Assembly (NCBI GenBank): GCA_017828975.1
Contig: JAGAJN010000027.1
Location: 1 to 37,308, forward strand
Source of the DNA: Oscillospiraceae bacterium
GTDB taxonomy: Bacteria > Bacillota > Clostridia > Oscillospirales > Ruminococcaceae
Direction of reading: 5' to 3'
Length of the DNA: 37,308 bases
Positions 134 through 19,664 of this stretch are shown piece after piece; the stretch's first letter is position 1, and every line of letters starts with the position of its first letter. Position numbers and translations under genes: made by a program. Below the pieces are notes generated by a model. It was given only the letters and a program-made list of their open reading frames with translations. It was not told the DNA's origin and did not search any database.

Positions 134-1417
134 TCTATCAAAGAATTAGAAAGGCTTATGAAAGCTATTGTTAGTAATTATCACGATAAAACTGACAAGA
201 AGGTCAATTTCTGTATTTTCATTGACGACCTGGATCGTTTGGAACCCCGAATTGCTTTGGAGCTGCTTGAACAGCTGAAAAATTTTATGGATTTCAGCAG
301 CTGCGTGTATGTTCTCGCTATTGACCAGAAGGTAGTAAATCAGGGTCTGAAGAAAAAATACGGCGAGGAATTTTTGAAGTGCGAAAATGGTGAAACCAGG
401 TCAAGAGCCGATAAGTTCTTTGACAAGCTGATACAGGTGCCTTTCCCCATACCTCAGAATAGCTACGACCTTACCGGTTTTATCCAGGGCATAATTCCCG
501 GTCTTGAAAAGTCTAAGGCAGAGAAATATTCGCAGCTGCTCAAGGGCTTTAACATTTACAATCCCAGAAGCATAAAAAGATACCTTAATCTTTGTGAGCT
601 TTATTGCAACATAATGAAGGAGTACGAGAACGAGGGCGTTATTAACGATGCGGACTTTAATTTCCGCTGCTTTGCGGTAAATGTGCTGAAATTTGAAAAG
701 AATGACGCTTTCATGAGAATGGCTGATAAAGTTCTGGAAAATTTAGAGGAAGAAAATGAGAAGGCATGGAAGGCACTTACGACGGTGCAAGGTAACGAGG
801 ATGGCAATAAGGCTGACGTCGAGTCATTCCCCGATGAAAAATATTATAACTTAGTTCTTGCTGCCTTTGAGGGAATTGACTGTGATGAAAGGCTGGCTCA
901 GCTGCGCAGTATCATTAAATGTTCGGGATATGATGAGGAGATCACCGAGGAGCTTAAAGGGGTCATTACCCTTAAAAAGCTGCTCAGGGCGGTTCGTGAC
1001 AGGAAAGACATCGAAAAGTGCGGTATAGAACTTTCAAGCTTTAAGGAGCTTCTTAATGGACTGAGCATAAAAAGCATTTGGGGAAATATCATATCGGGTG
1101 TTACAGCCGTCGGAACGGACAGCAGCTATTTGCTGAAAATAGGCGTAAGCACTAAGCTTTCCATTAGCAGGATATATTTATCCGTATTTTTGGGTGACCG
1201 CTGTAAACGTGAAGAAACAGAAGAATATATAAGCAAAAATACGAGCTTTGCTTTAAGTGACAATATGGATATGTCCGATCTGAGCCGCTCTTTCTATTTT
1301 GTGAATTCCAGTAATTATCTGATACTATATTTCGGAAACAACGACAGTGCCGTTGAAGATGTTCTCAAGCTGCTTGGATTTGCAGGATATTTATATGATG
1401 ATCGCAAGGGGGAATAA
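131..1417 (+). pseudogene. KAP-family P-loop NTPase, 5' part removed by the IS30 insertion
   Basis: The frame is open from the IS boundary at 131, with the first ATG at 158 (419 residues to the stop). Walker B is clear (FCIFIDDLDRLEP, D23-D24 counted from ATG 158), followed by the LEQLKNFM helix and the VLAIDQKVV strand typical of KAP NTPases, a STAND-like group of P-loop ATPases. The Walker A lysine loop that should precede Walker B is missing, because the IS30 end joins the gene just upstream. The rest, about 300 residues, is a helical C-terminal region I cannot assign. The stop lies 2 bases before the next ATG, so it was translationally coupled to the kinase-protease gene. An AAAGG sits before ATG 158, so a truncated protein could be made, but it could not bind nucleotide normally. 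KAP family: confident. Loss of function: inference. Confidence 0.8.
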
Positions 1418-1419
1418 GA

Positions 1420-4400
1420 ATGAACTTGAAAAATGTAACCAAGGGCAGCAGTATACTTAACGGTACCTGCTATGTGGAATCGGACGCCATTGTCGGCGGA
1501 ATGGCAAAGATATGGAAGGTCCGCCACCCCGAGTGGGAGATAAGTCTGGCTATGAAGATACCCGACAGCAGCGGGGATATTGACAGGCTCAGGGAGGATT
1601 TTCTCAGAGAATGCAGCCTTTGGATAGACCTGGGCATGAATCCGTATATCGTTCCCTGCTATTTTGTCGTTAAAGAGGAAGGCGAAACAGCGGCATTTTC
1701 CGAATGGATGGAGTGCGGCAGTCTTGCGGATAAGATCAGGGACGGCAGCCTTTATGAGGGTACCGAGGCTGAGTGTTCGGCACGGATACTGCGTGTGGCT
1801 GCGGAGGTGCTGCTGGGTCTGAGATACGCCCATTCAAACGGTGTTGTCCATAAGGATATAAAGCCCGGAAATATCCTTTTTTCCGCTGACGGAACAGCCA
1901 GGATAACCGATTTCGGAATGTCCGATTCAAGCTCTGCGGGATTTTCAAGACCCTATTGCTCGCCCGAACAGGCAAAAGGCAAGCCGCTCTCAAAGAGTAC
2001 GGATATATACTCCTGGGCGGTCATGGTCATGGAGATGCTTACGGGAGATCATAGCTGGGGCGACGGCAGCAGGCTTTCGTACAGCGGCTTTGATAAGTAT
2101 TTGACGCAGGCGAGAGTGTCCGTCCCGCTGTATTTTAAGGTATTACTGGAAAAATGCTTCAAAAGCGACCCCGAAAACAGGATAGATGTGGATACCGCTG
2201 CGGATATTGCCTGCGGAATATATGCCCGGATCATGATGGAAACAGAACCCGAGAATATTGCCGATCGCAGGTGCTTTGAGTCATGCTGTGCGGCTCTGAA
2301 CGACCGCCATACAGTCAGCGATATGCCTTTTATGCTTCAGCTTTTCAGAGAAATGCTGAAGTTTTCAAAAAAGAGCTTTTTCTATAACGGCTCTGCTGCG
2401 CCCAACAACGGAGGTATCTGCAATAACAAGGCGCTCAGCTGCCTTATGATGGGCAAGGAGGAGGAAGCTGAAAGGCTCTGGAAGGAGGCGACCAGACGTT
2501 ATCCCAATCACAGGGACTGTATCTATAACTATTACACCTATCTCTGGGAAAGATGCAGGATTACAAATATCGAGCTGGAGAACTATCTTGCGCCTATAAG
2601 GAATTACAACGCCTTCTATCGTGATGAGTATAAGAGAATATTCGGTGAGCCTGTTTTCGTAATGCACACCGAAACTCCGAAGGTCACGGAAAATATCTGC
2701 CTGAGCGGAAATATGAAGATGGGCTTCTCGGGCGACAGGAAGAAGTTTTATCTGGTATACCGCTATGAATATGAGATCGTTGCAGAGGCATTTCTGACCG
2801 AAACGGGCGAGCTGCTGGAAAGATACAATGACAATGTGACCGTAAGAAATATCCTGGAGGAGATAAAGGCAGGAAACAAGCTCATTTCCGACCGCTTTGA
2901 GTTCGATACCAACGTTATCGACAAGAAAACAGGCAGGATAATGAACTCTGTTTCGGGAATGCAGTATATCATCAGCGCTGACGACAGCCTGTATGCAATA
3001 TGCAGATCTTCGGCTGACTATAACTCTTCGGGCAAGCGTTCTTCGGCAAAGTATGTGAATAATATTTTCATATATTCTACCGAGGGCGCCGACCTGCATT
3101 TCCGTCCGAGGCTGAGCAGAAGCATGCTTATGAACGAGCTGCTGGAGCGTGAGGAGCGTTACAGAGTGCTGATGAGCGAGTATGAAACGGCATTGGAGCA
3201 GGACGACCCCGAAAGACAGGCTGAATGTCTGAACGGAATGACAGACTGCACAAGCTATGGCAGACCTCAGGAGCTTCTCAGGCTAAAAAGAGATTTTATC
3301 GCAGAAAATTCCCATATACTTTTGCTTCGGGAGCCGTATGTGGCAGAGGTGCGCATGCTGCCTGAGGTGATAACCGTTTCGGGTAACAACGATCTGACCG
3401 GTGCTGCCTTTTCACCTGACGGGAAGTACCTTGTCCTTGCGTTTAATCGGAAAATATGCTTTTTTGATACGGAGGGTCCGAAGCTTGCTGCCGAGATGAA
3501 GCTTCTCGATGCCGAGATAAAAGACTGTATTGATGCTGTACAGATAAGCTCTGCGGTCACCTTCGATGATTCGGGCGATCTGCTGTTTATCAATCAGGTG
3601 TTCAACGTCCGCAGAAGCAAGGATATTTACGAGAAGGTCGAGAGAGTTACGTCTTTCAATATCCGGGAACAAAAGCTGGTGTCTGCCTGCGCTGACCCCG
3701 ATGAATATAAGGACGTGCATTTTAAGACCAAGGAAACAGATGAGGAATTGGTAAAGGTTTGTCCTTACGATAATATCATAGCTGTAAATCCCACAAAAAC
3801 CATGATCGCGGCGGTGGAAAAGACCGACCCCGTGGATTATGAGCTGCTTATCTGCTTTATTGATTATGCCATTGACGTAGATTATGATGAAATGCTTGAC
3901 CTGAGCGATTGGGAGCTTGGTCCCTTCGATCCAAACTATTTCGGCGATGAAGATGACGACCTTGAGGAGGATACCGAGGAGGAAGAGCTGTCCGAGGACG
4001 ATAATGAGAACGGCTGCGATAAGTCTGAGGACACTGCCGAGGAAGAAAAGAGCAGATTGGACGAGTACAGCTGCTTCTCGGGCATCACAAAAGAAAATGA
4101 ATTTCTGGTTGACAGCCTTTCTTCGACCTTGCAGGGCTTCCTGAAGCGGCTTTCAGGCGTAAAGCTTGAAAATCCTTCTATAAAATTTGCCGCAAATGCC
4201 AAGGAAGCAAAGCGCATTTTAGACGCAGGTATCACAGACCTTTCAAGGGTAGACCCTGTGATACGCCAAATGATAGAGTGTACCGATGAAGAGTACGAGG
4301 ATATGATGAACGTCGTTAAAAAGCAGTCTGAGCTGTGGATGGGACGAGGCGAGTGTGATTTCCTTTCGCTTTATATCCGCTCCAATATGCCTGCAAAGGA

Positions 4401-7400
4401 GAACGCTGCAAGCATTGATGCGGAGGAAGTGACGTTCTTCCACAAATCGGCGGCTGAGCAGAGAAAGGTAGAGCTGCCGAAGCTGGTCAAGAGGATAGGC
4501 TATATGCGGCAGCAGCTCCTCGGCTGCGTAAAGGGTCAGGATCACGCTGTTCACGCCTTTGCTGACGGTCTTTTCAATGCGGAGGTGCTGGCTGCGGCAG
4601 ACAGTAAACGTACCCGTCCTAAGGCTATATTTACCTTTGCGGGACCTCCGGGTGTGGGCAAGACATTCCTTGCGGAGAAGGCAGCGGAATTTTTGGGCAT
4701 GGATTACGTTGACGGTGTAAAACGGTTTGATATGTCGGAATTCTCGGGGCCGCAGTCCCATGAGCAGCTTATTGGCTTTGCGTTTACATACAAGGCGTCC
4801 ACGGAGGGTACTCTTACCTCATATGTTAGAAATCACCCCAAGAGCATACTTATCTTTGATGAGCTTGAAAAGGCTCACCCCATGACCATTCAGCTTTTCT
4901 ATCAGATACTTGATGCGGGTATTCTTACCGATGCCTACATCAGCACGGGCAAGGCTGCGGTGGAAAACGGCTCCAACAACGATATGGATTCGGCTCAGAG
5001 AAAGAAATTCACGGAAACCGATCCTACGGTAAGCTTTAAGGACACTATCATTATTTTCACCACCAATGCGGGACACTCTCTTTATGAGGGCGACAAGCCT
5101 GCTTCCGGCTCGGATATTTCCATGCAGACCATTACAAATGCGCTTAAAGCGGACATTGACCCCATCACAAAGCAGCCCTATTTCCCCGAAGCTATCATCA
5201 GCCGTATTGCATCGGGTTATCCTATCCTTTTCAACAAGCTGACTCCTCACGATCTGGAGCAGATCTCCCATGCGGAATTCGAGAGATGCGGAAAGCTTAT
5301 CAAGAAGCAGTACAATATGAACATTGGTATTGAGGACAACAAGGTGCTGCTTTCCATTCTTTACGCTAACGGCGGTATCGTCGATGCCAGAACTCTCAGG
5401 GCACAGACGGAGCTTTTCTTCAAAAATGAGCTTCACAAGCTGTTCACCCTTATGACCGACGATATTCCGACTATGGATAAGGTGCTGTTCCGTGTGGAAA
5501 CGGAGTCTATGGACAGTAAGATGAAGGAGCTGTTCACTTCGGGCAGCAAGCCTAAAATTCTGCTGTACACCGATGAACGTTCGGCAGAGCTTCTGAAAAC
5601 GGCGGTGGGGGACAGTGCTGTGCTGTATAATGCGGCAGATGTCCATGACGCCTTGAAGCTGGCTGAGGACAAATATCCCGATTTTGCGCTTATTTCCCTG
5701 AAGGGCTCGGAGCATATCTCCGATACGGACGATACAAAGACTGTGTATGCTTCCATTTCCGCTCACCGCTGGAATGAAGGACGAAATCTTTTCAAGAGCC
5801 TGAGAGAGAAATTCCCCGAAATGCCCGTTTATCTTCTGGAGGCATTCGGGGACAAGATCGACGGAAGGCTGTTCACAAGCTTTGTAAGAGCGGGTGCGGA
5901 GGGCAAGATCTCCATAGCCTCGGGCGATGACGGCGGAGAGTTTGTCAGCGCAATAACTGAGGTCGGACGCAGCCTTTATATGAGAAGCATGGCTGCAAAA
6001 ATGGCAGCTCAGCACAAGGTACTGTCCTTTGAAACCGCTCCCAGAAACAACGACGGCGAGATAACTATTGCCCTGAGAAACTTCAAGCTTATCCGTGCCA
6101 TAGATGCGGAGGACGCTAATGACATTCTTGACAGCGACGAGATACCAAACCTTTCCTTCGACGACGTTATCGGCGCAAGAGAGGCAAAGGAGTCGCTGAA
6201 ATACTTCGTGAAATATTTCAAAGATCCCAGGGAATTCATTGCAAAGGGTCTTTCGCTGCCTAAGGGCATACTTCTTTACGGAAAGCCCGGAACAGGCAAA
6301 ACAATGATAGCAAAGGCTATGGCGGCGGAAAGCGGCTGTGCGTTCTTCCCTGCGGTGGGCAGTATGTTCATCGACGGAGCAAACAAGGGTCCCGAGGGCG
6401 TTCGGAGGCTGTTCAGAAAGGCAAGACGATATGCGCCTTCCATCATTTTCATCGACGAGGTGGACACTATCGCTGCTCAGAGAACGGGCAATGTTTACGC
6501 AAAATATGAGGAGTCTATACTGAACACTCTGCTGGCTGAAATGGACGGCTTTGCCTCCGACCCGCAGAAGCCCGTATTTGTTATGGCTGCCACAAATTAC
6601 AATGTGGAGCCCGGTTCGGGCATAGGCGTTCTCGATGAGGCGTTCATGAGAAGATTTGACAGGCAGATACTTGTAACTCTCCCCGACCTTGAGGACAGAA
6701 TAAAGTTTTTGAAGCTCCGTCTGGCAAAGACAGCTGTACACAATGTTACGGAGGAGGGAATCAAGTCGGTGGCTTCCCGTGCTATGGGTATCAGTCCCGC
6801 TATTCTGGATAATGTTATCAATGCGGCAAAGCAGCTGGCGTTTGATGCAAATGCTCCTTTAAGTGACGAGCATATGCTTGAAGCTCTGGAAAAGGTCCGT
6901 TTCGGCGAAAAGCGTGAGTTCAGCAGGGAATACCTTGAAAGAACGGCATATCACGAGGCAGGTCATGCGGTAATGTACTATCTGTCGGGCAATATTCCCG
7001 GGTATATCACCATTGAGGGAAGAAGCAATTTCGGCGGATATATGGAACATTCCGAGGAAGAGGTAAAGCGTCCGTACAGGTCGAGAAAGGAGCTTTTGGA
7101 AACTATCCGTACATCTCTCGGCGGAAGAGCAGCTGAGATAGTCAAGTACGGCGAAGATGACGGTCTGACTACGGGCATCAGCTCCGATCTCAGGACCGCA
7201 ACAAACAACGCCGTTTATATGCTGACAGCCTATGCAATGGACTCGGATTTCGGTCTTATGTCCATAGAATGGGAAAAGGCGGTCGAAATGGATTCTGTCA
7301 GAAGCCGTGTAAATGAAATTCTTGCCGAGGAAATGAGCAACACCGTAAATACGCTGAGAGCGAACATTTCTCTTCTTGAAACGGTAACAGCTGCGCTCCT

Positions 7401-7467
7401 TGAAAGGAACAGGATAACCGGCGAGGAATTCAAAAAGCTGGTTGAGAATGCTGCTGTAACGGAATAA
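1420..7467 (+). CDS. Giant Ser/Thr kinase - ClpB-type AAA+ - FtsH-type AAA+ - M41 metalloprotease fusion
   Basis: A 2015-residue protein with AAGGGGG before its ATG. Residues about 10-275 are a Hanks-type kinase: [10 protein letters not shown] glycine-rich loop, K46, catalytic HKDIKPGN (D146) and DFG (D164). Residues about 328-380 look TPR-like. About 400-1000 is beta-rich with a WD40-like [12 protein letters not shown] stretch, interrupted by a very acidic tract (about 827-881). A ClpA/B-type AAA+ follows, with Walker A GPPGVGKT (1075-1082) and Walker B FDE (D1147, E1148). About 1376-1500 resembles a degenerate receiver fold. A FtsH-type AAA+ has GKPGTGKT (1621-1628) and Walker B D1679/E1680. 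It ends in an M41 zinc protease with HEAGH (H1845, E1846, H1849) and a third ligand in SSDLRTAT (D1923). All catalytic motifs look intact. FtsH's N-terminal membrane helices are absent, so it is probably cytosolic. Inferred role: kinase-regulated, ATP-driven unfolding and proteolysis. Its targets are unknown. Confidence 0.9.
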
Positions 7468-7493
7468 GGTGCTTTTATGCAAGGAGTGAAAAT

Positions 7494-8459
7494 ATGCCGT
7501 TTCAAATAGTAAAGAGTGATATAACAAAGGTCAAGGCGGACGCTGTGGTCAACGCTGCAAACAGTTCTCTGCTGGGCGGCGGGGGAGTTGACGGAGCTAT
7601 CCACCGTGCGGCGGGAATGGGACTTCTGAAGGAATGTATGACTTTAGGCGGCTGCAAAACGGGTCAGGCAAAGGTCACAAAGGGTTATAAAATGCCCTGC
7701 AAATACATAATCCACACGGTAGGTCCCGTATGGCGGGGCGGAGAAAACGGCGAAAAAGAGCTGCTTTATTCCTGCTATGAAAAATCCTTGCAGCTTGCGA
7801 AGGAGTATAAATGCGAATCGGTGGTGTTTCCGCTGATCTCGTCGGGAATTTACGGCTATCCGAAGGACAAGGCTTTGGAGGTTGCGGTTTCGGCAATTTC
7901 GGACTTTCTGGCGGACAATGATATGGATATTACCTTGGCAGTGCTTGATAAAAATTCGGTTTCTGTCAGCGAAGGACTGCTTTGCGATGTCCGAAGATAT
8001 ATTAATGAGAATTATGCCGAAGAACCGGTCAGGAGCACTTTCAGGCGAACCGCATTTCAGGCAAAAATGTTACAGGAGGACGCTTGCTATGATGCTTTGC
8101 CTGTTGATTTTGATAAGCTGGACGAATCCTTTTCACAGGCACTTTTGCGTTTGATCGACGAAAAGGGCATGACCGATGTTCAGGTTTACAAAAAGGCAAA
8201 CATCGACCGAAGGCTGTTTTCAAAGATACGAAGCGATGTGAACTATAAGCCGAAAAAGCAGACAGCTGTCGCACTTGCCGTTGCCCTTGAGCTGGACATT
8301 TCCGAAACTCAGAGGCTGCTTGAAAAGGCAGGCTACACTCTGTCAAACAGCTTAAAGTTTGATGTCATAATAAAATATTTCATTGAAAATCGAATGTATG
8401 ATATTTACGAGATAAACGAAACGCTTTTTGCCTTTGACCAAAGTCTTATCGGCGTGTAA
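7494..8459 (+). CDS. Macro-domain protein with helical HTH-like C-terminal domain
   Basis: A 321-residue protein with AAGGAG ahead of ATG 7494. Residues 1 to about 150 form a macro domain: [20 protein letters not shown] is the ADP-ribose-binding loop and [12 protein letters not shown] the second phosphate-binding loop. Such domains bind or remove ADP-ribose or O-acetyl-ADP-ribose. Residues about 205-321 are a separate helical region ([20 protein letters not shown], then a [11 protein letters not shown] helix) resembling an Xre-type HTH. This two-part arrangement appears in other Clostridia from memory, but its function is not established. It lies 26 bases after the kinase-protease gene and is very probably co-transcribed. 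A role in reversing ADP-ribosylation or sensing ADP-ribose within this operon is inference. Confidence 0.85.
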
Positions 8460-8483
8460 TTGTCGCTTGAAATGCGACCAAAT

Positions 8484-8533
8484 ATCCCTCCGAATGATTT
8501 ATAATAAAGCTACAATAAATCATACGGAGGGAT
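8484..8533 (+). promoter_or_regulatory. 19-bp inverted repeat covering the -10 region and RBS of the vWA gene
   Basis: Left arm ATCCCTCCGAATGATTTAT (8484-8502) and right arm ATAAATCATACGGAGGGAT (8515-8533) match in 18 of 19 positions across a 12-base spacer. The right arm contains CGGAGGG, the ribosome binding site for ATG 8539, and a TATAAT (8500-8505) overlaps the left arm. As RNA it would hide the ribosome binding site; as DNA it could be a repressor operator. I see no convincing -35 box. There is no T-run, so it is not an ordinary terminator. Confidence 0.75.
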
Positions 8534-8538
8534 TTCTT

Positions 8539-9204
8539 ATGAAAAAGAATTTTACGGAGATAGTTTTTATCCTGGACGAAAGCGGTTCCATGGCTGATCT
8601 GAAAGGCGACACTATCGGAGGTTTCAACAGCCTTATTGAAAAGCAAAAAGCTGAAGCGGGCGAAGCTGTTGTATCGACGGTACTGTTTAGCACCGAAAGC
8701 CGTGTACTGCACGACAGAGTGCCTATTGAAGAGATTGGGAAGATGACGGACAAGGATTACTGCCCCGGCGGAGGCACCGCACTTCTGGACGCTGTGGGCG
8801 ATGCGGTGAAGCATATCGGGAATATCCACAAATACGCCCGTGACGAGGACGTTCCCGAGCATACGTTGTTTGTCATTACCACCGACGGTATGGAAAATTC
8901 CAGCAGACATTTTACCGCAGACAAGGTGAAGAAAATCATAAGCAGACAGCAGGAAAAGTACGGCTGGGAGTTTGTTTTTCTGGGAGCAAATATTGATTCT
9001 GCCGAAACTGCGGAAAGTATCGGCATAGGACGTGCCACTGCGGTGGATTATTGCTGCGATACGGTCGGCTGTGCAGTGCAGTACGATGCTATGTGTGAAG
9101 CTGTTTCAACTGTGAGAAAGGGATCAAAGCTGTCCGCATCAGCCGCTTGGAGAAAAGATGTCGATGCAGACCATAAAAGAAGAAAGGGAGCAGGGAACCA
9201 CTGA
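8539..9204 (+). CDS. Small von Willebrand factor A (vWA) domain protein, TerY-like
   Basis: A 221-residue protein that is essentially one vWA domain. The MIDAS metal site is complete in outline: DESGSM (D13, S15, S17), the CPGGGTALLDAV threonine loop, and TTDGMEN with its Asp. There is no signal peptide or membrane segment, so it is cytosolic. I chose ATG 8539 because CGGAGGG lies 6-12 bases upstream; a longer frame from 8428 would overlap the macro gene and lacks a ribosome binding site. TerY-type vWA proteins often act as metal-dependent scaffolds beside kinases, AAA+ ATPases or MoxR proteins. Here it follows such genes, but may have its own translational or transcriptional control through the inverted repeat over its start. 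Confidence 0.85.
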   Translation: MKKNFTEIVFILDESGSMADLKGDTIGGFNSLIEKQKAEAGEAVVSTVLFSTESRVLHDRVPIEEIGKMTDKDYCPGGGTALLDAVGDAVKHIGNIHKYARDEDVPEHTLFVITTDGMENSSRHFTADKVKKIISRQQEKYGWEFVFLGANIDSAETAESIGIGRATAVDYCCDTVGCAVQYDAMCEAVSTVRKGSKLSASAAWRKDVDADHKRRKGAGNH

Positions 9205-9221
9205 TCCAATCGACATTTTTT

Positions 9222-9262
9222 GCTTTTTTGCTGTCTGAGTGACGTATTTAGGTGAGTGTTCA
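9222..9262 (+). repeat. Dispersed repeat, copy 1 (about 42 bp)
   Basis: This segment, just after the vWA gene, matches the reverse complement of 33395-33436 at 35 of 42 aligned positions, including the identical core CTGAGTGACGTAT and the shared end GTGTTCA. The two copies lie 24 kb apart in unrelated intergenic regions, so common origin from a mobile or extragenic repeat is likely. I cannot name the family. Confidence 0.55.
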
Positions 9263-9264
9263 TT

Positions 9265-9367
9265 ATACTGATTTCCTATCATAAAGTTGACAAAAAATCC
9301 GTACAAAAGCTCGTGTATATGGGCTTTGTACGGATTTTTTGTCTATACTTTGATTAGAAATCAGTAT
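9265..9367. repeat. 103-bp imperfect inverted repeat enclosing a strong hairpin
   Basis: The ends ATACTGATTTC (9265-9275) and GAAATCAGTAT (9357-9367) are exact inverted copies. Inside, GACAAAAAATCCGTACAAA and TTTGTACGGATTTTTTGTC (19 bp) also pair. The part between pairs imperfectly, giving one long cruciform-like unit. It lies between the convergent vWA and ureD genes. Confidence 0.75.
9289..9343. terminator. Bidirectional terminator between vWA and the urease operon
   Basis: The inner stem AAAAAATCCGTACAAA / TTTGTACGGATTTTTT gives a T-rich 3' end on both strands, as expected for a shared terminator between convergent operons. It should stop transcription of the vWA gene from the left and of ureD from the right. 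Confidence 0.75.
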
Positions 9368-9445
9368 TAGTATAAGAACGGTCGGAAAGTGAATAGGGGG
9401 ATTTGGAAAAGTTTGCCTTGGTCTGAAAGTATTGCATAGATGAGT

Positions 9446-9486
9446 ACCCGTCCTGTCGGGAATATCACCTGAAAGGACGGGTGTTT
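9446..9486 (+). terminator. GC-rich hairpin with T-rich tail directly after ureD
   Basis: ACCCGTCC (9446-9453) pairs with GGACGGGT (9475-9482), followed by GTTTTATTTTT on the plus strand. It sits directly downstream of the ureD stop. The T-run favours plus-strand termination, that is, read-through from the vWA side towards urease, rather than urease itself. Confidence 0.5.
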
Positions 9487-10187
9487 TATTTTTCGTTGGA
9501 AAATGAGTTTAATATTTCCTGCGCCGAATCCGAAAGCATGCGGATCACCTTGCCCTTGTGTGCGTTTGTACCGCACAGGCTGTCAGGGGTGTCTGAATTG
9601 AAGGAGTACATCATTCCCGAATGGGTGTGACCCTCAAAAAAGCCAATGCCCGAAAGGTCAGCTTCATTTGGCAGAAGCTTCACATTGTCCAGAAAAGCAA
9701 GCGTTCCGTCAATATGAACGGCAGTCCTTGAACGGTAGCTTGTAAAAGCAAATTGTTCATTCATGGCAGTACGTCCGCAGGAGAAAATATCCTGCATAAG
9801 AAACGAAGCTTCGTTTCCGAGAAATATTTCTGTCCTGCCGTCAAAAATGCTTTCCGCAAAGGGGATAACGGGCTGCGGAAGATACAAAAATCTGCCGCCG
9901 TTTTCCACGGTGATTTTTACACGCTGAACTGCGCCGCCCTTTTCTCCCGATTTGAAAATTTTCGTAAATGACTGCCCCGTAAATTTCAGGGAAGCGTTTT
10001 CCTTAACGACAATTTCTATCTCGTAAATATCGCCGTCAAGCATTCCCGCACTTGCCGTCATCATCATTATCTCGGTGTATCGGGGGTAATAAAACGGCTT
10101 TGCTATTTTTATGGGAGATGAAAAAAAGCTGTCCGTTATGACCGTTCTGCCGTTTTTATTTTCGGCGCAGATATATAGGCGGCTCAT
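9486..10187 (-). CDS. ureD: Urease accessory protein UreD (UreH)
   Basis: A 233-residue protein, last gene of the urease operon. UreD is the scaffold that binds apo-urease and, with UreF and UreG, delivers nickel to the active site. Recognisable UreD family features are [21 protein letters not shown] near the N-terminus, the [11 protein letters not shown] strand and the [19 protein letters not shown] segment. It is somewhat shorter than many homologues (about 260-280). Its ATG overlaps the ureG stop by 4 bases, which indicates translational coupling. Placing ureD last, after ureG, is common in Gram-positive operons. Confidence 0.9.
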
Positions 10188-10795
10188 TTCAGATCCTCAA
10201 AAAGAACATTTTTCTTTATCCAGGAAATGACCTCATCAACGCCGTCAAGGGACATCAGATTTGTGAACATATACGGTCTGCCGTTTCTCATTCTTTCGGA
10301 ATCCCTTGCCATGACATCAAGGCTTGCGCCTACAAGTGGAGCAAGGTCTGTCTTGTTTATTACAAGCAGGTCGGAACGTGTTACTCCGGGACCGCCCTTC
10401 CTCGGAATTTTCTCGCCCTGTGCAACGTCAATGACATAGATCGTTGCATCTGCCAGGTCGGGGGAAAATGTGGCAGAAAGGTTATCTCCGCCGCTTTCAA
10501 TAAAAATGATCTGAACATCGGGAAATTTTTCCGCCATTTCCTCAACAGCTTCAAGATTCATGGAACAATCCTCTCTGATGGCAGTATGAGGACAGCCGCC
10601 TGTTTCAACGCCTACGATTCTTTCGGGGGGAAGCTTGGAATTTTTTATGAGAAACTCGGCGTCCTCCTTTGTGTAAATATCGTTGGTAACAACGCAGATG
10701 CTGTATTCCTCGGACATTTTCCTTGTAAGCCGTTCAATAAGTGCGGTCTTTCCCGAGCCTACGGGACCGCCCACGCCGATCTTTACATATGACAT
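10184..10795 (-). CDS. ureG: Urease accessory GTPase UreG
   Basis: A 203-residue SIMIBI-class GTPase that powers nickel delivery to urease. The P-loop [17 protein letters not shown] is near the N-terminus. [20 protein letters not shown] contains the conserved Cys-Pro-His nickel-binding motif, [19 protein letters not shown] follows, and the nucleotide-specificity motif is [14 protein letters not shown] 10795 is chosen because GAGAGG lies 8 bases upstream; a GTG three codons earlier has no spaced ribosome binding site. It overlaps ureD by 4 bases and follows ureF by 12 bases. Confidence 0.96.
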
Positions 10796-10807
10796 ACGAT
10801 ACACCTC

Positions 10808-11476
10808 TCAGGATATATAAATTCGCGAGTATAGTTTTTCGTGTTCCATGGAACGCAGGTCAAAGCCAAAGCCGCTTATTCCAAGCTCATCTTCGGGAAC
10901 AGTCAGCGCTTTTTCAACTGCATGGGGGATAAGCTTCATGGCTTCGCTTAATGCCGCCTGACCGTCAAGCTGTCTGAGCGGCACAAGCTTGACCGCATGA
11001 TTTACCATTGATGAAAGCAGGCTGTAACAGTACATCTCCAAGCCTGTGACAATATCCGTATTCGTATCGGCAATGAAAAGTCCCACGGCAATGCAGTGAT
11101 GCCCCGAACATTCGCCCGAGGATATTTTTTCGGAATAGCTTTCAAGCTGTCGGTATCTGCCCATTGCCATTTCGGCTTTGAGAAATCTTGCGCAAAGCTT
11201 TTCGCTGCCGTTTCTCAGTTCATAGGGCGATTTTGCGGCGGTGCATATTTCGTCAAGCAATGAAACATCTCCGCCGTTTGCAGCCTTTGCCGCAAAGCCT
11301 AAGTCACTCGTTGGCAGGGTGTAAATATACGCAGACAGAAAATTTTCAAGACTCTCCCTATCTTTTACTATCTCCTTCTGAGTGTAGGTTTCCATACCGT
11401 TTGACAGCGTGAAGGTGCCAATAGGGAACAGGCTGTCAAGTGCCTGCATCAGAGAGATAAGCCCTGTATTATTCAT
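10808..11476 (-). CDS. ureF: Urease accessory protein UreF
   Basis: A protein of 222 residues from ATG 11476. UreF bridges UreD and UreG in the activation complex and controls the GTPase. The N-terminal LMQALDSLFPIGTFTLSNGMETY is the family signature, and the helical body includes SGECSGHHCIAVGLFIAD. The start is uncertain. ATG 11476 overlaps the ureE stop by 8 bases and fits translational coupling; an in-frame ATG at 11494 would give 228 residues. Neither has a strong ribosome binding site. Confidence 0.93.
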   Translation of the reverse strand: MNNTGLISLMQALDSLFPIGTFTLSNGMETYTQKEIVKDRESLENFLSAYIYTLPTSDLGFAAKAANGGDVSLLDEICTAAKSPYELRNGSEKLCARFLKAEMAMGRYRQLESYSEKISSGECSGHHCIAVGLFIADTNTDIVTGLEMYCYSLLSSMVNHAVKLVPLRQLDGQAALSEAMKLIPHAVEKALTVPEDELGISGFGFDLRSMEHEKLYSRIYIS

Positions 11477-11912
11477 GGTGATGGGTATGCGCATGGGCTC
11501 TGCACTCGATATATCCGGAAAATTTCTCGTGAGTTTTTGTCACGCTGAATCCAAGCTTTTTCAGATATTCAAAGGTCGGTTCGTCATAGGGACATTTAAC
11601 GTTATTTTCGGATATTGAGAGCGACAGATGACGGTTTCCAAGCTCAAAGCAGAGCCGTCCCATTTCCTTCATACTGCTCACATTTACGCTTACAAGGTCG
11701 CATGGGGCAATTTCTACCGCAATTATCCTGCTGTCGTCCTCGTAAAGAATATCTCCCTCATTAAGCGGAGAATCCACCTTTATGCCAATATCCTCACCCG
11801 CTGATGTGGTTTTGCGAAGCAGCTTTTTGTCACGCTCGAACCAGTCGATAGTGACGGTTTCAACTTGCTTTGATGTTTCGTGAAGCTTTCCGATAATTTT
11901 TTCCGCTATCAT
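11469..11912 (-). CDS. ureE: Urease nickel chaperone UreE
   Basis: A 147-residue metallochaperone that supplies Ni(II) to the UreDFG complex. The N-terminal peptide-binding-like domain (TIDWFERDKKLLRKTTSAG) and the metal-binding domain (CFELGNRHLSLSISENNVKCPYDEPTFEYL) with its conserved GNRH histidine are visible. The C-terminus ends in a His-rich tail, ECRAHAHTHHHE, typical of nickel-storing UreE. AAAGGAC lies 7 bases before ATG 11912. Confidence 0.96.
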   Translation of the reverse strand: MIAEKIIGKLHETSKQVETVTIDWFERDKKLLRKTTSAGEDIGIKVDSPLNEGDILYEDDSRIIAVEIAPCDLVSVNVSSMKEMGRLCFELGNRHLSLSISENNVKCPYDEPTFEYLKKLGFSVTKTHEKFSGYIECRAHAHTHHHE

Positions 11913-11925
11913 AAAAAGTGTCCTT

Positions 11926-12237
11926 TCATTTCTTGGTAAGTACCGCCTTTAAAACGCCGTCGGGGTCTTTTATAAGAAGGGAAACCAGCCAGATGACCAT
12001 TCCGAAGGCGGTAACGGACAGTCCCAGAAATCCGTCGTTTATCATATCTGCGGCTGCGGGAAGAAAATAATCCGCACCGGCTTCCATATACTCGGCAACA
12101 GCGTCAACAAGCCACATAAGCGACGCTCCCCAGTACATAAAGCAAAGCAGGCTGACATTGTGTTTTCTCGCCTTTTCGCTTGTGTACCATATAGCTGTGC
12201 TTATAACTGCGGCAATTATCGTAATAAGAAGTGTCAT
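11926..12237 (-). CDS. Unknown small membrane protein in the urease operon (second of a pair)
   Basis: A 103-residue protein I do not recognise. It has hydrophobic segments near residues 1-17 (LLITIIAAVISTAIWY), about 30-48 (CFMYWGASLMWLVDAVAEY) and about 70-90 (FLGLSVTAFGMVIWLVSLLI), so 2-3 membrane helices. The loop EYMEAGADYFLPAAADMIND carries several acidic residues. Its ATG overlaps the stop of the preceding small gene by 4 bases, and ureE follows 13 bases after its stop, so it is firmly inside the operon. It resembles neither UreI, UreJ/HupE nor the Yut/UT urea channels as far as I can see. A role in nickel or urea handling is guilt-by-association only. Confidence 0.75.
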   Translation of the reverse strand: MTLLITIIAAVISTAIWYTSEKARKHNVSLLCFMYWGASLMWLVDAVAEYMEAGADYFLPAAADMINDGFLGLSVTAFGMVIWLVSLLIKDPDGVLKAVLTKK

Positions 12238-12611
12238 TTTTCAGCACCTCTCAAAGCATTATCTCTGCGTCTTTCAATAGCGGTGCTGACCGCAGCCATG
12301 ACCGCCCAAACAGCCGTTACAAGCACTGCCATAGCAACTCCCGAGGTAGACATTTCGTGCAGCATTGCCATAGTGCTTTCTGCTGAATTTGCTGCGGTGA
12401 GGAACGGAAACCAAGGTGTTACCTCGCCGTGCCAGACGTGTTCAAATGCCAGAAGTGCAGAGCCGCCCCAAAGCATTTTATTCAGCCAGCCTATTTTTTC
12501 GGAAAAATTCACAGATAAGCTTTCTCCTGTTTTCTTTTCGTGATGTTCGATAATTTTTTGTGCGGCAGTCGTGATGATCGCTTCTGCTGCGGGAACTGTA
12601 AAACAAGCCAT
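12234..12611 (-). CDS. Unknown small membrane protein in the urease operon (first of a pair)
   Basis: A 125-residue protein, family not identified. The start at ATG 12611 (MACFTVPAAEAI) is chosen because GGAGG (12620-12624) lies 8 bases upstream; an earlier ATG at 12626 overlaps the ureC stop but itself contains that ribosome binding site. Features are an amphipathic N-terminus with EHHEKK, a hydrophobic LNKMLWGGSALLAFEHVWHG (two His), the aromatic segment TPWFPF, and a clear membrane helix GVAMAVLVTAVWAVMAAVS before a basic C-terminus (ERRRDNALRG). It is coupled to the next small gene by a 4-base overlap. The His residues leave metal binding possible but unproven. Confidence 0.8.
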   Translation of the reverse strand: MACFTVPAAEAIITTAAQKIIEHHEKKTGESLSVNFSEKIGWLNKMLWGGSALLAFEHVWHGEVTPWFPFLTAANSAESTMAMLHEMSTSGVAMAVLVTAVWAVMAAVSTAIERRRDNALRGAEK

Positions 12612-12625
12612 AATATTTTCCTCCA

Positions 12626-14338
12626 TTAAAACAGATAATATTTTTGTGTGAGCGGGAGTTTTTCCGCAGCTTCGCAGATGATCTCCTCGCCGTCAACGGT
12701 TACATGATAGTTTTCGGGATCGACCTTAATATCTCCCGTTCTGTCGTTAAAGCGCATATCCTTTTTGCCGATGCTGCGGCAGTCCTTAACCGGAAGAATT
12801 ATCCGCTGCAAATCAAGCCTTTCCTCAATGCCGTTTTCCTTTGCCGCCTTTGATACAAAGGTCGCACAGCAGCGTTTCACCGCAAGTCCCTCGGCACCGA
12901 ACATTTTCGTGTAAACAACGGGCTGGGGTGTTGGAATGGACGCATTTGCATCGCCCATTTTTGATGCGCAGATAAATCCGCCTTTGATTATCATTTCGGG
13001 CTTTACGCCGAACATTGACGGTTTCCACAGCACAAGATCGGCAATTTTTCCGACCTCGACAGAACCCACATATTCGGAAATTCCGTGAGTAACTGCGGGA
13101 TTTATGGTGTACTTTGAAACATATCTCTTGACACGGAAATTGTCGTTTCTGTCGTTATCCTCGGGGAGAGCTCCTCGCTGATCCTTCATTTTCGATGCGG
13201 TCTGCCAGGTTCGGGTAATGACCTCGCCAACACGTCCCATAGCCTGTGAATCGCTGGACATCATGCTGAAAATTCCCATATCGTGAAGAACGTCCTCCGC
13301 CGCAATAGTTTCGGGACGAATCCTCGAATCCGCAAAGGCAATATCCTCGGGCACCTTGCTGTCAAGATGGTGGCAAACCATAAGCATATCAAGGTGTTCG
13401 TCAATGGTATTCTTTGTAAAGGGCATTGTGGGATTTGTGGAAGACGGCAGAATATTCGGGAATGCCGCCGCCTTGATAATATCGGGAGCGTGTCCGCCGC
13501 CTGCGCCCTCGGTGTGATATGTGTGGATAACTCTGCCGCCGATGGCATTCAGAGTATCCTCCACAAATCCGCCCTCATTGAGCGTATCGGTATGTATGGA
13601 AACCTGAACATCATATTTATCCGCAACAGTCAGTGCCCTGTCAATAACGGAAGGCGTTGAACCCCAGTCCTCGTGAATTTTCAGACCGCATGCGCCCGCT
13701 TCTATCTGCTCGGCAAGTGTATCAAGGTCTGCGCTGTTTCCCTTTCCGAGAAATCCCAGATTCATCGGGTATTCTTCCGCTGCTTCTATCATTTTTTCAA
13801 GATTGAATTTTCCGGGGGTGCAGGTGGTGGCGTTTGTTCCGTCGGCAGGACCCGTTCCGCCGCCTATCATTGTTGTGATTCCCGAATAAAGAGCGGTTTC
13901 TATCTGTGTCGGGCTGATAAAGTGGATATGGGTGTCGATTCCGCCTGCTGTGAGGATAAGCCCCTCTCCCGCAATGGCTTCCGTGCCTGCGCCGAAAACG
14001 AGAGATGGTGTTACACCGTCCATAATATCGGGATTTCCCGCCTTGCCTATGCCGCAAATTTTCCCGTCCTTAATGCCGATGTCCGCCTTGTAAATTCCCG
14101 TGCAGTCAACGACAAGCGCAGAGGTAATGACCGTATCGGGACATTCGCTGTCGGGGACGGTACAGGACTGTCCCATGCCGTCACGGAGAGATTTTCCGCC
14201 TCCGAATTTGGCTTCATCTCCATACACCGTATAGTCCTTTTCGACCTCGATAATAAGAGAAGTGTCCGCAAGACGCACTCTGTCGCCCGTTGTTGGACCG
14301 TACATATCGGCATACTGCTTTTTGCTCATTTTAAACAT
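12626..14338 (-). CDS. ureC: Urease alpha (catalytic) subunit UreC
   Basis: A 570-residue, full-length UreC, the nickel amidohydrolase subunit that hydrolyses urea to ammonia and carbamate. The DTHIHF nickel ligands are present. The bridging lysine (carbamylated in the active enzyme) is K220 in GLKIHEDWG, the same number as in the well-studied Sporosarcina pasteurii enzyme, which supports the start. Also seen are [12 protein letters not shown], the GGGHAPDI loop, the mobile-flap motif MVCHHLD and the [10 protein letters not shown] ligand Asp. GGGGG in the end of ureAB serves as ribosome binding site. All catalytic residues look intact. Confidence 0.98.
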
Positions 14339-14340
14339 TT

Positions 14341-15021
14341 TTATGCCCCCTTAAAGCCAAGCTTTTTCGCCTTTTCAAGGGCAGCCTGTCTGACATTTTC
14401 ATCGTCAAAGCAGCCCTGTGTAAGGTCGTTCAGACCCATTCCCACACGGTTTCCGCCTATATCCACAAGTCTTACCTTCTTGCTTTCACCCGGTTCAAAT
14501 CTCACGGCAGTTCCTGCGGGAATGTCAAGCCGTTTTCCGAAAGCCGCCGCACGGTCAAATTCCAGCATTTTGTTTACTTCAAAGAAATGGAAATGCGAAC
14601 CTGTCTGAACGGGACGGTCGGCGGTGTTGGTGACGGTTATTTCCACCGAATTTTTGCCCTCATTGACAGTTATCTCGCCGTCGTCGATCAGCATTTCGCC
14701 GGGGATAATTTTGTTGTTCGGTATGATAGGCTCGTGTACGGTCACAAGCTTTGTGCCGTCGGGGAAGGTGGCTTCAAGCTGTATCTCGTGAATCATCTCC
14801 GCAACGCCGTCCATAACGTCGTCGGCAGATAACAGCTGTCTGCCCCTGCTCATAAGCTCGGTCACGGACAAGCCGTCACGGGCAAGCTCCAGAAGCTCCG
14901 AGGTTATGTATGCCACAGCCTCCGGGTAGTTGAGCTTCAAACCTCTTGCTTTACGTTGTTTTGCAAGTTCGCCTGCGTAATGCGTCATTAGTCGTTCCTG
15001 CTCTCTTGGGGTGAGGTGCAT
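14341..15021 (-). CDS. ureAB: Fused urease gamma-beta subunit (UreAB)
   Basis: A 226-residue fusion of the two small urease subunits. Residues 1 to about 99 are the gamma subunit ([48 protein letters not shown]). Residues about 100-226 are the beta subunit ([44 protein letters not shown]). Most bacteria encode these separately; the fused form is best known from Helicobacter. AAAGGAGAG precedes the ATG, and ureC starts 2 bases after its stop. It is the first gene of the operon. Confidence 0.96.
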
Positions 15022-15264: not shown

Positions 15265-15291
15265 TGAAAGTTGCAAAATGGGGGCGTCTTA

Positions 15292-17988
15292 ATGAAACGA
15301 AAATTCAGGATAAATACCTTTAGCAGCAAAACTATTTCCGTGGTGACCATACTGATTTTCCTTTGCGTTATGACCATTATTTTTGCGGGGAGCAGATATG
15401 TGAACACCTGTATCGAAGCGGCGGAAAATGCCCGAAAAAATTCCGAGGAGCTGAGAATGCTGGGCGAAAAGCTGGCGTATGCGTCCGACTATTTGACAGA
15501 TGAAGCAAGGCGGTATTCGGTCACGGGGGATATTTCGCATTTGTACAATTACTGGCACGAGGTCTTTTCTGCAAAAACGAGAGATGGAGTCATTGAAACG
15601 CTGTCCTCATACGGTCCGCCCGCAAATGAAAGGGAGCTGCTTGAAAAGGCAAAGCAGTATTCGGATATGCTGATAAACACCGAAATGATCTCAATGAAGC
15701 TGCGTCTTATTTCCGACGGGAAAACTGCCGATGACTACTTTTATAATGAGGAGCTTTGCGGTTATGTCAGAATGGTGGAGGAATGTGAGCTTCCTGCCGA
15801 ATATGACAATATGACCGCCGATGAAATGGGAGAAAAGGCAGAGGCTATATTGCATGACGCTTTTTACAATGAATCAAAGTCGCTGATAATGTCGCCCATA
15901 CAGGAATTTCAGGCGGCAATGGCGGCACGTCTTGACAAGGACGAGGACGAGTCGGCAAGGGGCATTGCGTTTGCGTCATATGTTCAGATAATAGGCTCGG
16001 TGGCGGTAATTGTGCTTGTGGGCATATTGATAATCGGGATAAACTTTTTTTACATAAAGCCCATAGAAAGGTATTCCGATACGCTTTCCCATTCAAATAT
16101 CGAGAATGATATTTCAAGTGCGGACCTTTCGGTAGTGCGTGTGGTCCCCGACGGAGCGGCGGAGCTTTACCGATTTGGTGAGGTGTTCAATCATTTGTCG
16201 CTGGTGCTGAATAAGGAGCTGAAGATCAGGGCACAGGCGGAAGAGAATATGCGTATCGCAAAAGAGCAGGCGGACAGCGCAAACGAAGCCAAAACTCAGT
16301 TTTTCGCACAGATGAGTCATGAGCTGCGCACCCCTTTGAATGCTGTTACAGGCTATCTTTATCTTCTTGAAAGAACCGAGCTTGACGATGAACAGAGAAA
16401 ATGCACTCATGGCATCGGAATAGCGGCGGACAACCTGCTGGGGCTTATCAACAATGTCCTTGATTTTTCAAAGATAGAATCGGGGAATATGACCTTTGAA
16501 AATGTATCCTTTGAGCTTCACGGGCTGCTGAATGAAGTGTTTGAGATGATGGAAAATACGGCAAAAAGCAAGGGCATAGGACTTATGCTGAACATTTCCG
16601 AAAAGATACCCGCCGTTGTTTCTGGCGATCCTCTCAGGCTCAGACAGGTGCTGATAAACCTTGTGGGCAATGGGATAAAATTCACCGAAAAAGGGAATGT
16701 TGACATATCCGCTGTGTATATGGGAATGAACGGCGGAAGGCATATAGTCGAATTCGGTATCCGTGACAGCGGCGTCGGAATAAAAAAGGAGGATATTCAA
16801 AGCATTTTTTCGCCGTTTGTTCAGTCCGATGCTGGAGTAACAAGAAAGTACGGCGGAACAGGTCTTGGACTGCCCATTGCGGATATGATAGTAAGCGGAA
16901 TGAGCGGCGGGAAATATCACATTGTCGTATCATCGGAGGAGGGCATAGGCTCATACTTCCGATTTAAGGCGGAATTTGATAAGGGCGCTGAGCTGAGGTC
17001 TGTTGAAGGCTCGGCTGCGGACGATCTGTCGGTAAAGGGAAATACTATCCTGCTTGTTGACGATAACGGCATAAACCTTAAAATAGAAAGCGAGATACTC
17101 GGAAGCTTCGGTCTTGAGGTAATTGCGGCAGAAAGCGGAAATGCTGCTCTCAGACTTGCCGCCGACGCTTCGCCGGACCTTATCCTGCTTGACCTTCATA
17201 TGCCCGGAATGGACGGTTATGAAACGGCGGCAAAGCTGAGAGCGGACGGCATCTGCGTCCCCATTATTGCGCTGACCGCCGATGTTGTTTCGGGGACAAG
17301 GGAAAAGATAATCGCTGCGGGAATGGACGGCTATCTGACAAAGCCCTTCAAAGCGGAAAAACTCAAAAGCGTTATAAACAGATTTCTCGGGAGTGAAATA
17401 GCTTACAGTGATGAGGTCCCCGAAAGCGATTCATTTTTCTGCATAGAAGAGGTGCTGAAAAATCTCGGCGGAAATAATGAGCTTCTGTACAGCGTTGTCA
17501 AGAAATTTATGGTCAATGAACGGTACAGCGGCAAATATATCGAGGCGCATATTAACGGCGGAAGATATGATACTGCGAAAAACATTCTTCACGATGTAAA
17601 GGGCATGGCGGGAAATATGTGCTGTTACCGTTTATGCGACGCTGCGGAGAAGCTGCATGCTGAGCTTATTAACGGGGAATACACTTCGCTTGAAAAATTC
17701 AAGTCGGTCTGGGACAGTACGATAAAAGAACTTGATGGGTTCATTTCGGCATTTGAAAGCAGAAAAAAGAGCGTTTCGGACGATTTGCCGTATGACAGTG
17801 TAAAGAAAAAATTCATTGAGCTTTGCTCCGATTATGACATTTATGCGGCGGAATGGTTTGAAAAATACAGCGATATTTTCCGACGGAATATGGATAACAG
17901 AGCATTCGCAAAGTTAAGTGAAGCGGTCAGCAAATACGATTTTGACAGCGTACTGACTGTTTTTGGAGAGGTGAATACAGATGTATAA
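15292..17988 (+). CDS. Membrane hybrid histidine kinase (HK-REC-Hpt)
   Basis: A protein of 898 residues from ATG 15292, chosen because GGGGG lies 7 bases upstream; a TTG frame begins 7 codons earlier. It has a membrane helix near residues 12-32, an extracytoplasmic helical region of about 190 residues, and a second helix (VAVIVLVGILIIGINFFY). HisKA follows with phospho-acceptor H343 (QMSHELRTPLNAV), then HATPase with N box LINLVGNGIKF, DSGVGI and GGTGLGL. A receiver domain has D634 (LLDLHMPGMDG) and TKPF, and a C-terminal Hpt domain has H767 (ILHDVKGMAGN). All relay residues are present, so a full His-Asp-His relay to the adjacent response regulator is expected. The ligand is unknown; urea, ammonia or nitrogen status is inferred from position. 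It overlaps the regulator gene by 8 bases. Confidence 0.93.
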   Translation: MKRKFRINTFSSKTISVVTILIFLCVMTIIFAGSRYVNTCIEAAENARKNSEELRMLGEKLAYASDYLTDEARRYSVTGDISHLYNYWHEVFSAKTRDGVIETLSSYGPPANERELLEKAKQYSDMLINTEMISMKLRLISDGKTADDYFYNEELCGYVRMVEECELPAEYDNMTADEMGEKAEAILHDAFYNESKSLIMSPIQEFQAAMAARLDKDEDESARGIAFASYVQIIGSVAVIVLVGILIIGINFFYIKPIERYSDTLSHSNIENDISSADLSVVRVVPDGAAELYRFGEVFNHLSLVLNKELKIRAQAEENMRIAKEQADSANEAKTQFFAQMSHELRTPLNAVTGYLYLLERTELDDEQRKCTHGIGIAADNLLGLINNVLDFSKIESGNMTFENVSFELHGLLNEVFEMMENTAKSKGIGLMLNISEKIPAVVSGDPLRLRQVLINLVGNGIKFTEKGNVDISAVYMGMNGGRHIVEFGIRDSGVGIKKEDIQSIFSPFVQSDAGVTRKYGGTGLGLPIADMIVSGMSGGKYHIVVSSEEGIGSYFRFKAEFDKGAELRSVEGSAADDLSVKGNTILLVDDNGINLKIESEILGSFGLEVIAAESGNAALRLAADASPDLILLDLHMPGMDGYETAAKLRADGICVPIIALTADVVSGTREKIIAAGMDGYLTKPFKAEKLKSVINRFLGSEIAYSDEVPESDSFFCIEEVLKNLGGNNELLYSVVKKFMVNERYSGKYIEAHINGGRYDTAKNILHDVKGMAGNMCCYRLCDAAEKLHAELINGEYTSLEKFKSVWDSTIKELDGFISAFESRKKSVSDDLPYDSVKKKFIELCSDYDIYAAEWFEKYSDIFRRNMDNRAFAKLSEAVSKYDFDSVLTVFGEVNTDV

Positions 17989-19641: not shown

Positions 19642-19664
19642 ATATTTAAATGGAGGAAAGATTT

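Follow-up and report, generated by a model that had tools for sequence, protein, structure and literature searches.

Bacterial AAA+ proteases are known in a handful of architectures, namely, Lon, ClpXP, ClpCP and ClpAP, HslUV, FtsH and the proteasome types. Among the bacterial proteins that bear on the subject of this work, PrkA possesses a single AAA+ module and no M41 domain, and RssB is an adaptor separate from the one motor that it serves, in each respect unlike the protein considered here. We analyzed a stretch of 37,308 nucleotides from an Oscillospiraceae bacterium (contig JAGAJN010000027.1 of assembly GCA_017828975.1; hereinafter, the window), in which an open reading frame (ORF) of 2015 amino acids (aa) encodes a Ser/Thr protein kinase, two AAA+ motors, a receiver-like domain and an M41 protease site in one chain without a membrane anchor.

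Each of the closest described systems shares some of these parts. The FtsH-ternary MoxR-vWA systems, as described by Kaur et al. (2020, PMC7159879), have a MoxR and vWA core and two FtsH-type AAA+ modules, the first of which is inactive. Like these systems, the window locus combines two AAA+ modules, the second an active one of the FtsH type, with VWA and beta-propeller partners and a conflict context; unlike them, its first AAA+ module is of the Clp type and carries the Walker residues, and an M41 domain follows, so that the double FtsH arrangement is lacking. MoxR is not among the matches listed for the window neighbors tested by Pfam. PrkA resembles the window protein in that a single bacterial polypeptide is reported to combine a kinase-like part with an AAA+ part (PMC13001217), and RssB-ClpXP offers a model for the receiver-like domain, given that an atypical response regulator is reported to deliver the substrate to an AAA+ protease (PMC7226468). 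Compared to the M41 proteases FtsH, m-AAA and i-AAA, the window protein has no transmembrane anchor and has a second AAA+ module of another clade in front; compared to the Hsp100 proteins ClpB, ClpC and ClpA, it contains only the part corresponding to nucleotide-binding domain 2 (NBD2) and a protease in cis instead of ClpP; and compared to Hanks-type kinases such as PknB, its kinase is fused to a protease. The original prediction, made from the DNA alone, knew of no named system with this domain order, and no description of one was found in the open literature searched (titles and abstracts, with subscription journals mostly outside). The parts are known; the failure to find the combination in the open literature is no proof of absence.

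Domain architecture of the kinase-protease fusion protein

The ORF is a single frame uninterrupted by internal stops (0 found). A Pfam search of its full length recovered all four domains named in the original prediction, in the predicted order and over the curated cut-offs: Pkinase (E = 7.6e-34), AAA_2 of the Clp type (E = 2.1e-29), AAA (E = 1.7e-38) and Peptidase_M41 (PF01434; E = 7.9e-22), with the residue ranges given in Table 1. The catalytic residues of the kinase, both Walker A/B sets, the HEAGH motif and Asp 1923 all are where they had been read from the sequence. The predicted structure of the core, that is, the segment from the Clp-type module through the receiver-like (REC) domain and the FtsH-type module to M41 (Clp-REC-FtsH-M41), has a predicted local distance difference test (pLDDT) score of 87 and matches Clp NBD2 and FtsH structures (VIA-align); together with the alignment, these matches confirm two AAA+ modules of different clades with the motor residues in place. 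Beyond the original prediction, the analysis revealed the TPR-like and propeller-like regions, the receiver-like domain, the neighboring KAP, macro-domain and VWA-like genes, and the fact that the core belongs to a family in which a kinase, if one is seen at all, usually is encoded by a separate gene nearby.

In the Clp module, which combines the NBD2 fold with the motor residues, Walker A extends from G1075 to K1081, Walker B consists of D1147/E1148, and Tyr1124 was assigned to the pore loop by eye. The FtsH module contains Walker A and B along with the second-region arginines R1745/R1748 expected of FtsH-type AAA domains; these arginines and the pore-loop Phe1650 were assigned by eye. The M41 site comprises H1845, E1846 and H1849 plus D1923, the characteristic HExxH with a distant Asp. 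In an alignment of 92 cores (the window and 91 relatives of at least 700 aa; the broken L148 and L151, which runs into a contig end, are shorter and were left out), both His, the Glu and the Asp are conserved in 90/90 rows that reach these columns, with 2 rows ending earlier, which excludes a chance occurrence of these residues. The Walker residues are retained in all rows that reach them, except for L102. In this divergent relative (7576-10458), the motor residues of both the Clp and the FtsH modules are altered whereas HEAGH and the Asp are intact, so that it appears to be a protease with disabled motors.

The prediction of a soluble protein is supported by hydropathy: no transmembrane anchor was found, the top 19-residue value being 1.31, compared to 3.21 for the only other M41 match in this genome, an FtsH on another contig that has a transmembrane helix. 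The NCBIfam FtsH equivalog TIGR01241 yields 287.7 bits, below the cut-off of 600, and the ClpB model yields 103.7 bits against a cut-off of 1232, with a second stretch counted and the best stretch covering only NBD2 (558-699 of 853). The ClpA model matches in one stretch (445-588 of 734), and the best ClpB, ClpA and ClpV stretches all represent the NBD2 part only. In place of the two Clp nucleotide-binding domains of ClpB and other class I Hsp100 proteins, the other AAA+ module of the window protein is of the FtsH type. An ordinary FtsH or ClpB paralog is ruled out because the domain architecture differs and the NCBIfam cut-offs are not reached.

The kinase is of the Hanks type, with the VAIK Lys (K46), the HRD Asp (D146, in the form HKD) and the DFG Asp (D164) all present and invariant (15/15). 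No PASTA match is among the 25 Pfam families listed. The TPR-like assignment of the helical region behind the kinase draws on the homolog in locus L194, in which a TPR_2 match (aa 291-324) reaches 26.3 bits, just below the cut-off of 27. In the propeller-like region, which shares 25% identity with its counterpart in L194, all WD40 matches are below the cut-off (best E = 0.016), and a clear propeller was set aside for the window protein for this reason. The separate partner kinases of L165 and L182, the two that were run against Pfam, have clear WD40 propellers.

No Pfam match to the Clp N-domain was detected in aa 861-1010 of the window protein (0 matches), a weak test because Pfam Clp_N scarcely detects the domain in relatives either (E = 0.11 and 0.16 in two of them and none in L033). 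A profile of 12 N-termini from the kinase clade described below matches ClpC N-domains (best E = 1.7e-4; hhalign 92.6). The kinase unit of the window and L194 proteins sits where the kinase-clade relatives start with this Clp-N-like domain.

The domain between the two motors was identified as a receiver fold by profile comparison. A profile of 34 relatives searched against PDB matched several response regulators, among them 2qxy (E = 5.2e-6), with a designed protein as the best match (E = 5.3e-7), and hhalign gave a probability of 92.7 to the receivers of two other window proteins. Pfam Response_reg matches are weak, with 14/34 members at E up to 1 (best 6.8e-4). On this region, they are equaled by those of OKR_DC_1_N, a decarboxylase N-terminal domain (14/34 members, best 8.1e-4). 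The phospho-acceptor Asp is present in 81/92 aligned cores; the window protein has Ser1426. The receiver-like domain might thus interrupt the small domain of the Clp module as an insertion because, among the 26 Clp/Hsp100 structure rows listed by VIA-align, 22 extend past it to model residue 544-552, with the other 4 stopping at 358-362.

Relatives and origin of the fusion

The linker-Clp-receiver region was matched in 10/396 genomes from the same family at E of 1e-34 (including the window genome itself and a broken copy in G136), in 12/394 at the order level (1e-28) and in 3/398 at the phylum level (1e-36), with the window genome included each time. Another family search matched 33/197 genomes, of which only the window genome, G094 and G136 matched beyond the FtsH part, and a class-wide search matched 56/391 genomes at E of 1e-28, three of them (the window genome, G882 and G908) below 1e-50; the next best match (1.4e-33, in a 764-aa frame) and those beyond it presumably represent ordinary Clp proteins. 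When named genomes were scanned using an alignment of the Clp C-terminal part and the receiver region, 127 relatives were obtained; the 80 of these that were retained for analysis, with 13 further loci, make 93 relatives with the core. Most are recorded as uncultured Clostridia, Oscillospiraceae and Ruminococcus, many with isolate names that mention an animal gut, and others as Treponema, Tannerellaceae, Dysgonamonadaceae, Anaerolineaceae, Deferribacteraceae, Syntrophomonas and Lachnospiraceae bacterium AC2029. Duplicates (L033, L055, L056, L057, L058, L060, L062, L096, L197 and L200) were dropped before counting, and the broken L034 was not counted; the non-independent L120/L133 (identical cores from one genome) and L063/L064 (near-copies) were kept. 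Several of the 93 end at contig edges, and L148 is broken.

The whole protein as a single query against genome contigs gave 41 stretches matching the search pattern and 0 relatives; the region tested against viral contigs gave 50 stretches and 0 relatives; and a 382-aa region gave 0 relatives in phage records. Among plasmids, 447 records match and 0 cover 80% of the query, the 12 matches listed corresponding to the FtsH part and being named ftsH where annotated.

A search for the same architecture in other genomes, suggested with the original prediction, thus recovered the core in 93 relatives and a fused kinase in only two of the loci found, the window and L194; the architecture does not invariably include the kinase. 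Outside L194, the longest core ORF has 1241 aa, and complete ones start from about 960 aa. The L194 protein, from a different genus of the same family, has 1879 aa and contains the kinase, the near-threshold TPR match, AAA_2, AAA and M41; it aligns with 48% identity over aa 888-2014 of the window protein and 26% over aa 3-762, and its next gene encodes a KAP NTPase. The stretch ahead of the Clp module also is conserved, in L194 from aa 952 and in the broken L034 with 32% identity over aa 945-1100. In L034 (about 6563-9346, genome G136), the Clp/FtsH core is broken across several frames.

In the FastTree phylogeny of the 92 cores (a quick, midpoint-rooted tree without bootstrap, in which the long-branch rows L102 and L097 are of unsure place), the window and L194 group together (support 99), L195 is their nearest neighbor (support 96), and all three belong to a 27-row clade (support 100) that holds all 19 loci of the tree with kinase or PP2C genes. 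Because the kinase and the core are neighboring genes in some relatives and the tree places the fusions in that clade, the fusion would most simply have joined two neighboring genes of one operon.

Genomic neighborhoods

In the window, the KAP gene that precedes the fusion gene matches PF07693 over profile positions 147-289 of 293, and its aa 1-149 share 44% identity with aa 199-352 of the KAP protein adjacent to L194. These KAP NTPases resemble QatA/PifA models, below the NCBIfam cut-off for QatA. Of the QatA-QatD genes that make up the Qat anti-phage system, this ATPase is the only component seen. The macro-domain and VWA-like genes downstream are likely co-transcribed with the kinase-protease ORF.

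Table 1. Features of the kinase-protease locus and its immediate neighbors in the window
Feature	Coordinates	Strand	Residues	Remarks
KAP NTPase, C-terminal part	158..1417	+		5' part of gene missing near contig edge; ends just before kinase ORF
Whole ORF	1420..7467	+	2015 aa	kinase / TPR-like / degenerate propeller-like / acidic linker / Clp-D2-type AAA+ / receiver-like / FtsH-type AAA+ / M41
Ser/Thr protein kinase domain	1495..2196	+	26-259	K46, E64, D146, N151, D164 present
TPR-like helical region	2410..2643	+	about 331-408	helices in model; TPR inferred for window
Propeller-like region	2653..3999	+	about 412-860	acidic stretch at its end; sub-cut-off WD40
ClpB-D2-type AAA+ large domain	4615..5172	+	1066-1251	Walker A 1075-1082, Walker B 1147-1148
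Receiver-like domain	5542..5934	+	about 1375-1505	profile and hhalign
FtsH-type AAA+ module	6268..6678	+	1617-1753	Walker A K1627, Walker B D1679/E1680
Peptidase M41	6928..7440	+	1837-2007	HEAGH 1845-1849, third ligand D1923
Macro-domain protein	7494..8459	+		directly downstream, gap about 30 bases; PF01661 E 3.3e-47
VWA-like protein	8428..9204	+		overlaps macro gene end; PF05762 17.3 bits, cut-off 26.4 not reached
Terminator-like hairpin	9466..9483	+		may end operon; 5 such sites vs shuffle mean 9.2, no enrichment

A separate kinase gene is located upstream of the core on the same strand, at a distance of 10 to 1085 bases, in 15/93 relatives (within 100 bases in 10 of these). PP2C genes were found in 13/93 loci and FHA-kinase genes in 9; kinase, PP2C and FHA-kinase genes all are upstream in 8. 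The operon order FHA-kinase, PP2C, kinase and Clp-REC-FtsH-M41 is seen in L159, L165, L173, L178 and L179, with TPR and WD40 in the kinase of L165. The upstream kinase in 15/93 loci, PP2C in 13/93 and the two fusions support a functional link between kinase and core. Chaperone genes were noticed by eye at two loci: in L182 (11502-14153), the core is directly followed by a gene resembling ClpB, and in L163 (1-261), it is preceded by the end of one resembling DnaK.

A different set of neighbors accompanies the core in 51/93 relatives, which encode at least one of YbjN-like (30 loci), TrkA-N-type membrane (24), RyR (16), Card1-like (14) and TIR (4) proteins, with 0 overlap between these loci and the 18 kinase loci. 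Neither a kinase gene nor these neighbors were found in 24/93 relatives, many of them on short contigs; these include L194 with its fused kinase and L162 with a PP2C gene. Of the 50 tree rows labeled for these neighbors (the label also counts a sigma-factor-like gene), 47 form a 59-row clade (support 99) together with 12 unlabeled rows, and the remaining 3 fall in a separate 4-row group. Nearly all copies lie within 3 kb of the core (TrkA-N 25/25, RyR 16/16, Card1-like 14/14, YbjN 43/47), and 126/133 labeled genes within this distance are on the same strand as the core.

The Card1-like protein of L125 (6466-7719), the only member run, matches CARF-PDDEXK models over its full length (PADLOC E = 1.3e-29), with the Pfam Card1 matches just below the cut-off; this gene is also found in 13 other loci and is upstream of the core in 13/14. 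The TrkA-N-type, membrane-protein-like family (L111 2618-4963 and 23 other loci) consists of proteins of about 520-950 aa, with a TrkA-N match in one member and no Pfam match in two others, and a small RyR-domain gene is also present in 14 of its 24 loci. A preprint (PMC13232231) deals with RyR-domain proteins of phages, which are reported to break down immune signals based on ADP-ribose. Small YbjN-like genes beside the core are often paired, for example, in L033 (13374-14382), with the L033 copy scoring under and the L061 copy over the Pfam YbjN cut-off. L103 and L179 encode macro-domain and SIR2-type proteins, the SIR2 match being under the Pfam cut-off. A DUF1848 gene was observed downstream of the core in L103 and L194 (2/93 loci), followed in L103 by the macro and SIR2-type genes.

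The KAP and macro genes in the window, along with the PP2C, CARF-nuclease-like, RyR, TIR and SIR2-type genes in relatives, suggest that the family functions in signal-controlled conflict or stress systems rather than in housekeeping proteolysis.

The remainder of the window around the fusion locus holds genes of other kinds. At nt 3-107, there may be the end of an IS30-type transposase, suspected by eye and unconfirmed, its 35 residues having no NCBIfam match. Urease genes (UreD, UreG-like, UreF, alpha and fused gamma/beta subunits) occupy 9486-15021 on the minus strand, and a urea ABC substrate-binding protein is encoded at 19650-20939. Between the urease and urea transporter genes, at 15271-18736, are a hybrid sensor histidine kinase and a response regulator with an AraC-like C-terminal half.

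Proposed mechanism and alternatives

We propose, with a probability of roughly 0.6, that the window protein is a soluble, self-compartmentalizing AAA+ protease that carries its own control unit and is regulated by phosphorylation, with a Clp-type ring passing substrates on to an FtsH-type ring and an M41 chamber. The chains would form a hexamer, with the Clp ring stacked on the FtsH ring and the M41 ring in this order and a channel shared between them; substrates would enter the Clp ring, thread through the FtsH ring and be degraded in the M41 chamber. A built-in adaptor or clutch could be provided by the receiver-like domain, and the TPR-like and propeller-like region could recruit substrates or a signal. 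The kinase, fused or encoded nearby, with the PP2C phosphatase in the split operons, would switch substrate uptake or activity by phosphorylation, and the system would act in a conflict or stress response.

Several observations weigh against this proposal. In 74/93 relatives, many of them on short contigs, there is no kinase gene, nearby or fused, in the stretch examined, so that the data do not establish control by a kinase as a general feature. The PP2C gene of L162 is downstream and on the other strand, that of L168 is cut by the contig end, and L195, placed next to both fusions by the phylogeny, lacks every neighbor looked for. The neighborhood counts are raw ones without a random-gene baseline. 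In the window protein itself, Ser1426 replaces the usual Asp of the receiver, and the propeller is weakly supported, with a poor N-terminal model (pLDDT 56).

It also has to be considered whether the long ORF is a genuine, working gene. An assembly fusion of two genes, named with the original prediction as a finding that would refute it, is not borne out: the kinase and the core indeed are separate but close in 15/93 relatives, which would fit an assembly or sequencing fusion of adjacent genes, but an independent 1879-aa homolog with the same order occurs in another genus and the stretch ahead of the Clp module is conserved in L194 and L034, so that this explanation is largely contradicted and appears extremely improbable. 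Alternatively, the gene could be a decaying copy that is being lost, next to a KAP gene that is itself broken. The KAP gene without its 5' part, the lost receiver Asp and the broken relative in G136 are compatible with such decay, but 2015 stop-free codons with the checked motor, protease and kinase residues in place make it quite improbable.

Other alternatives concern the function of an intact protein. The AAA+ modules might act mainly as a disaggregase or remodeler, with M41 trimming or destroying a few dedicated targets and the kinase, whose own targets would be elsewhere (the KAP and macro partners or cell proteins), being merely co-located. The majority of relatives have no kinase in the stretch examined, and the ClpB-like gene of L182 would fit such a function, but we consider it unlikely given that kinase-core fusions occur in two genera, that the two genes are at most 1.1 kb apart in 15/93 relatives, and that the M41 residues are kept in every row reaching them. 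A further possibility, compatible with the phosphorylation-controlled protease that we favor, is defense or abortive infection, whereby a kinase or nucleotide signal would unleash the protease on host or phage proteins. The resemblance of the KAP NTPases to QatA/PifA, the CARF-PDDEXK-like nuclease, RyR and TIR genes beside other relatives, and the macro and SIR2-type genes in two loci argue for this role; yet the PADLOC matches (25 listed of 43) each cover a single domain, either that of kinases (for example, mad6 and PD-T4-6) or that of AAA proteins (for example, IetA and DolB), no relatives were found in viral contigs and phages with the regions tested, and TIR is present in only 4/93 loci. 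We regard defense as a possible role, with somewhat less than even chances.

Implications

For the soluble, phosphorylation-controlled protease favored here, the family at large suggests a tentative generalization. The hetero-tandem Clp/FtsH proteases with in-cis M41 might be a new class that carries out the proteolysis in signal-controlled conflict systems of anaerobes, with one clade wired to Ser/Thr kinases, FHA and PP2C, and the other to nucleotide or ADP-ribose signals via CARF, RyR, macro and TIR; the window protein would then be a case in which the kinase input is fused to the machine.

If correct, the proposal would add to the known AAA+ proteases an architecture with two motors of different clades and their own protease on one chain, in places together with a eukaryote-like kinase, and would provide a compact system for testing how a degradation machine is turned on and off by phosphorylation or nucleotide signals. 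The presence of this motor-protease family in many anaerobes points to a little-noticed family of signal-controlled proteases, and its genomic neighborhoods hint that regulated proteolysis and nucleotide-signal immunity are connected.

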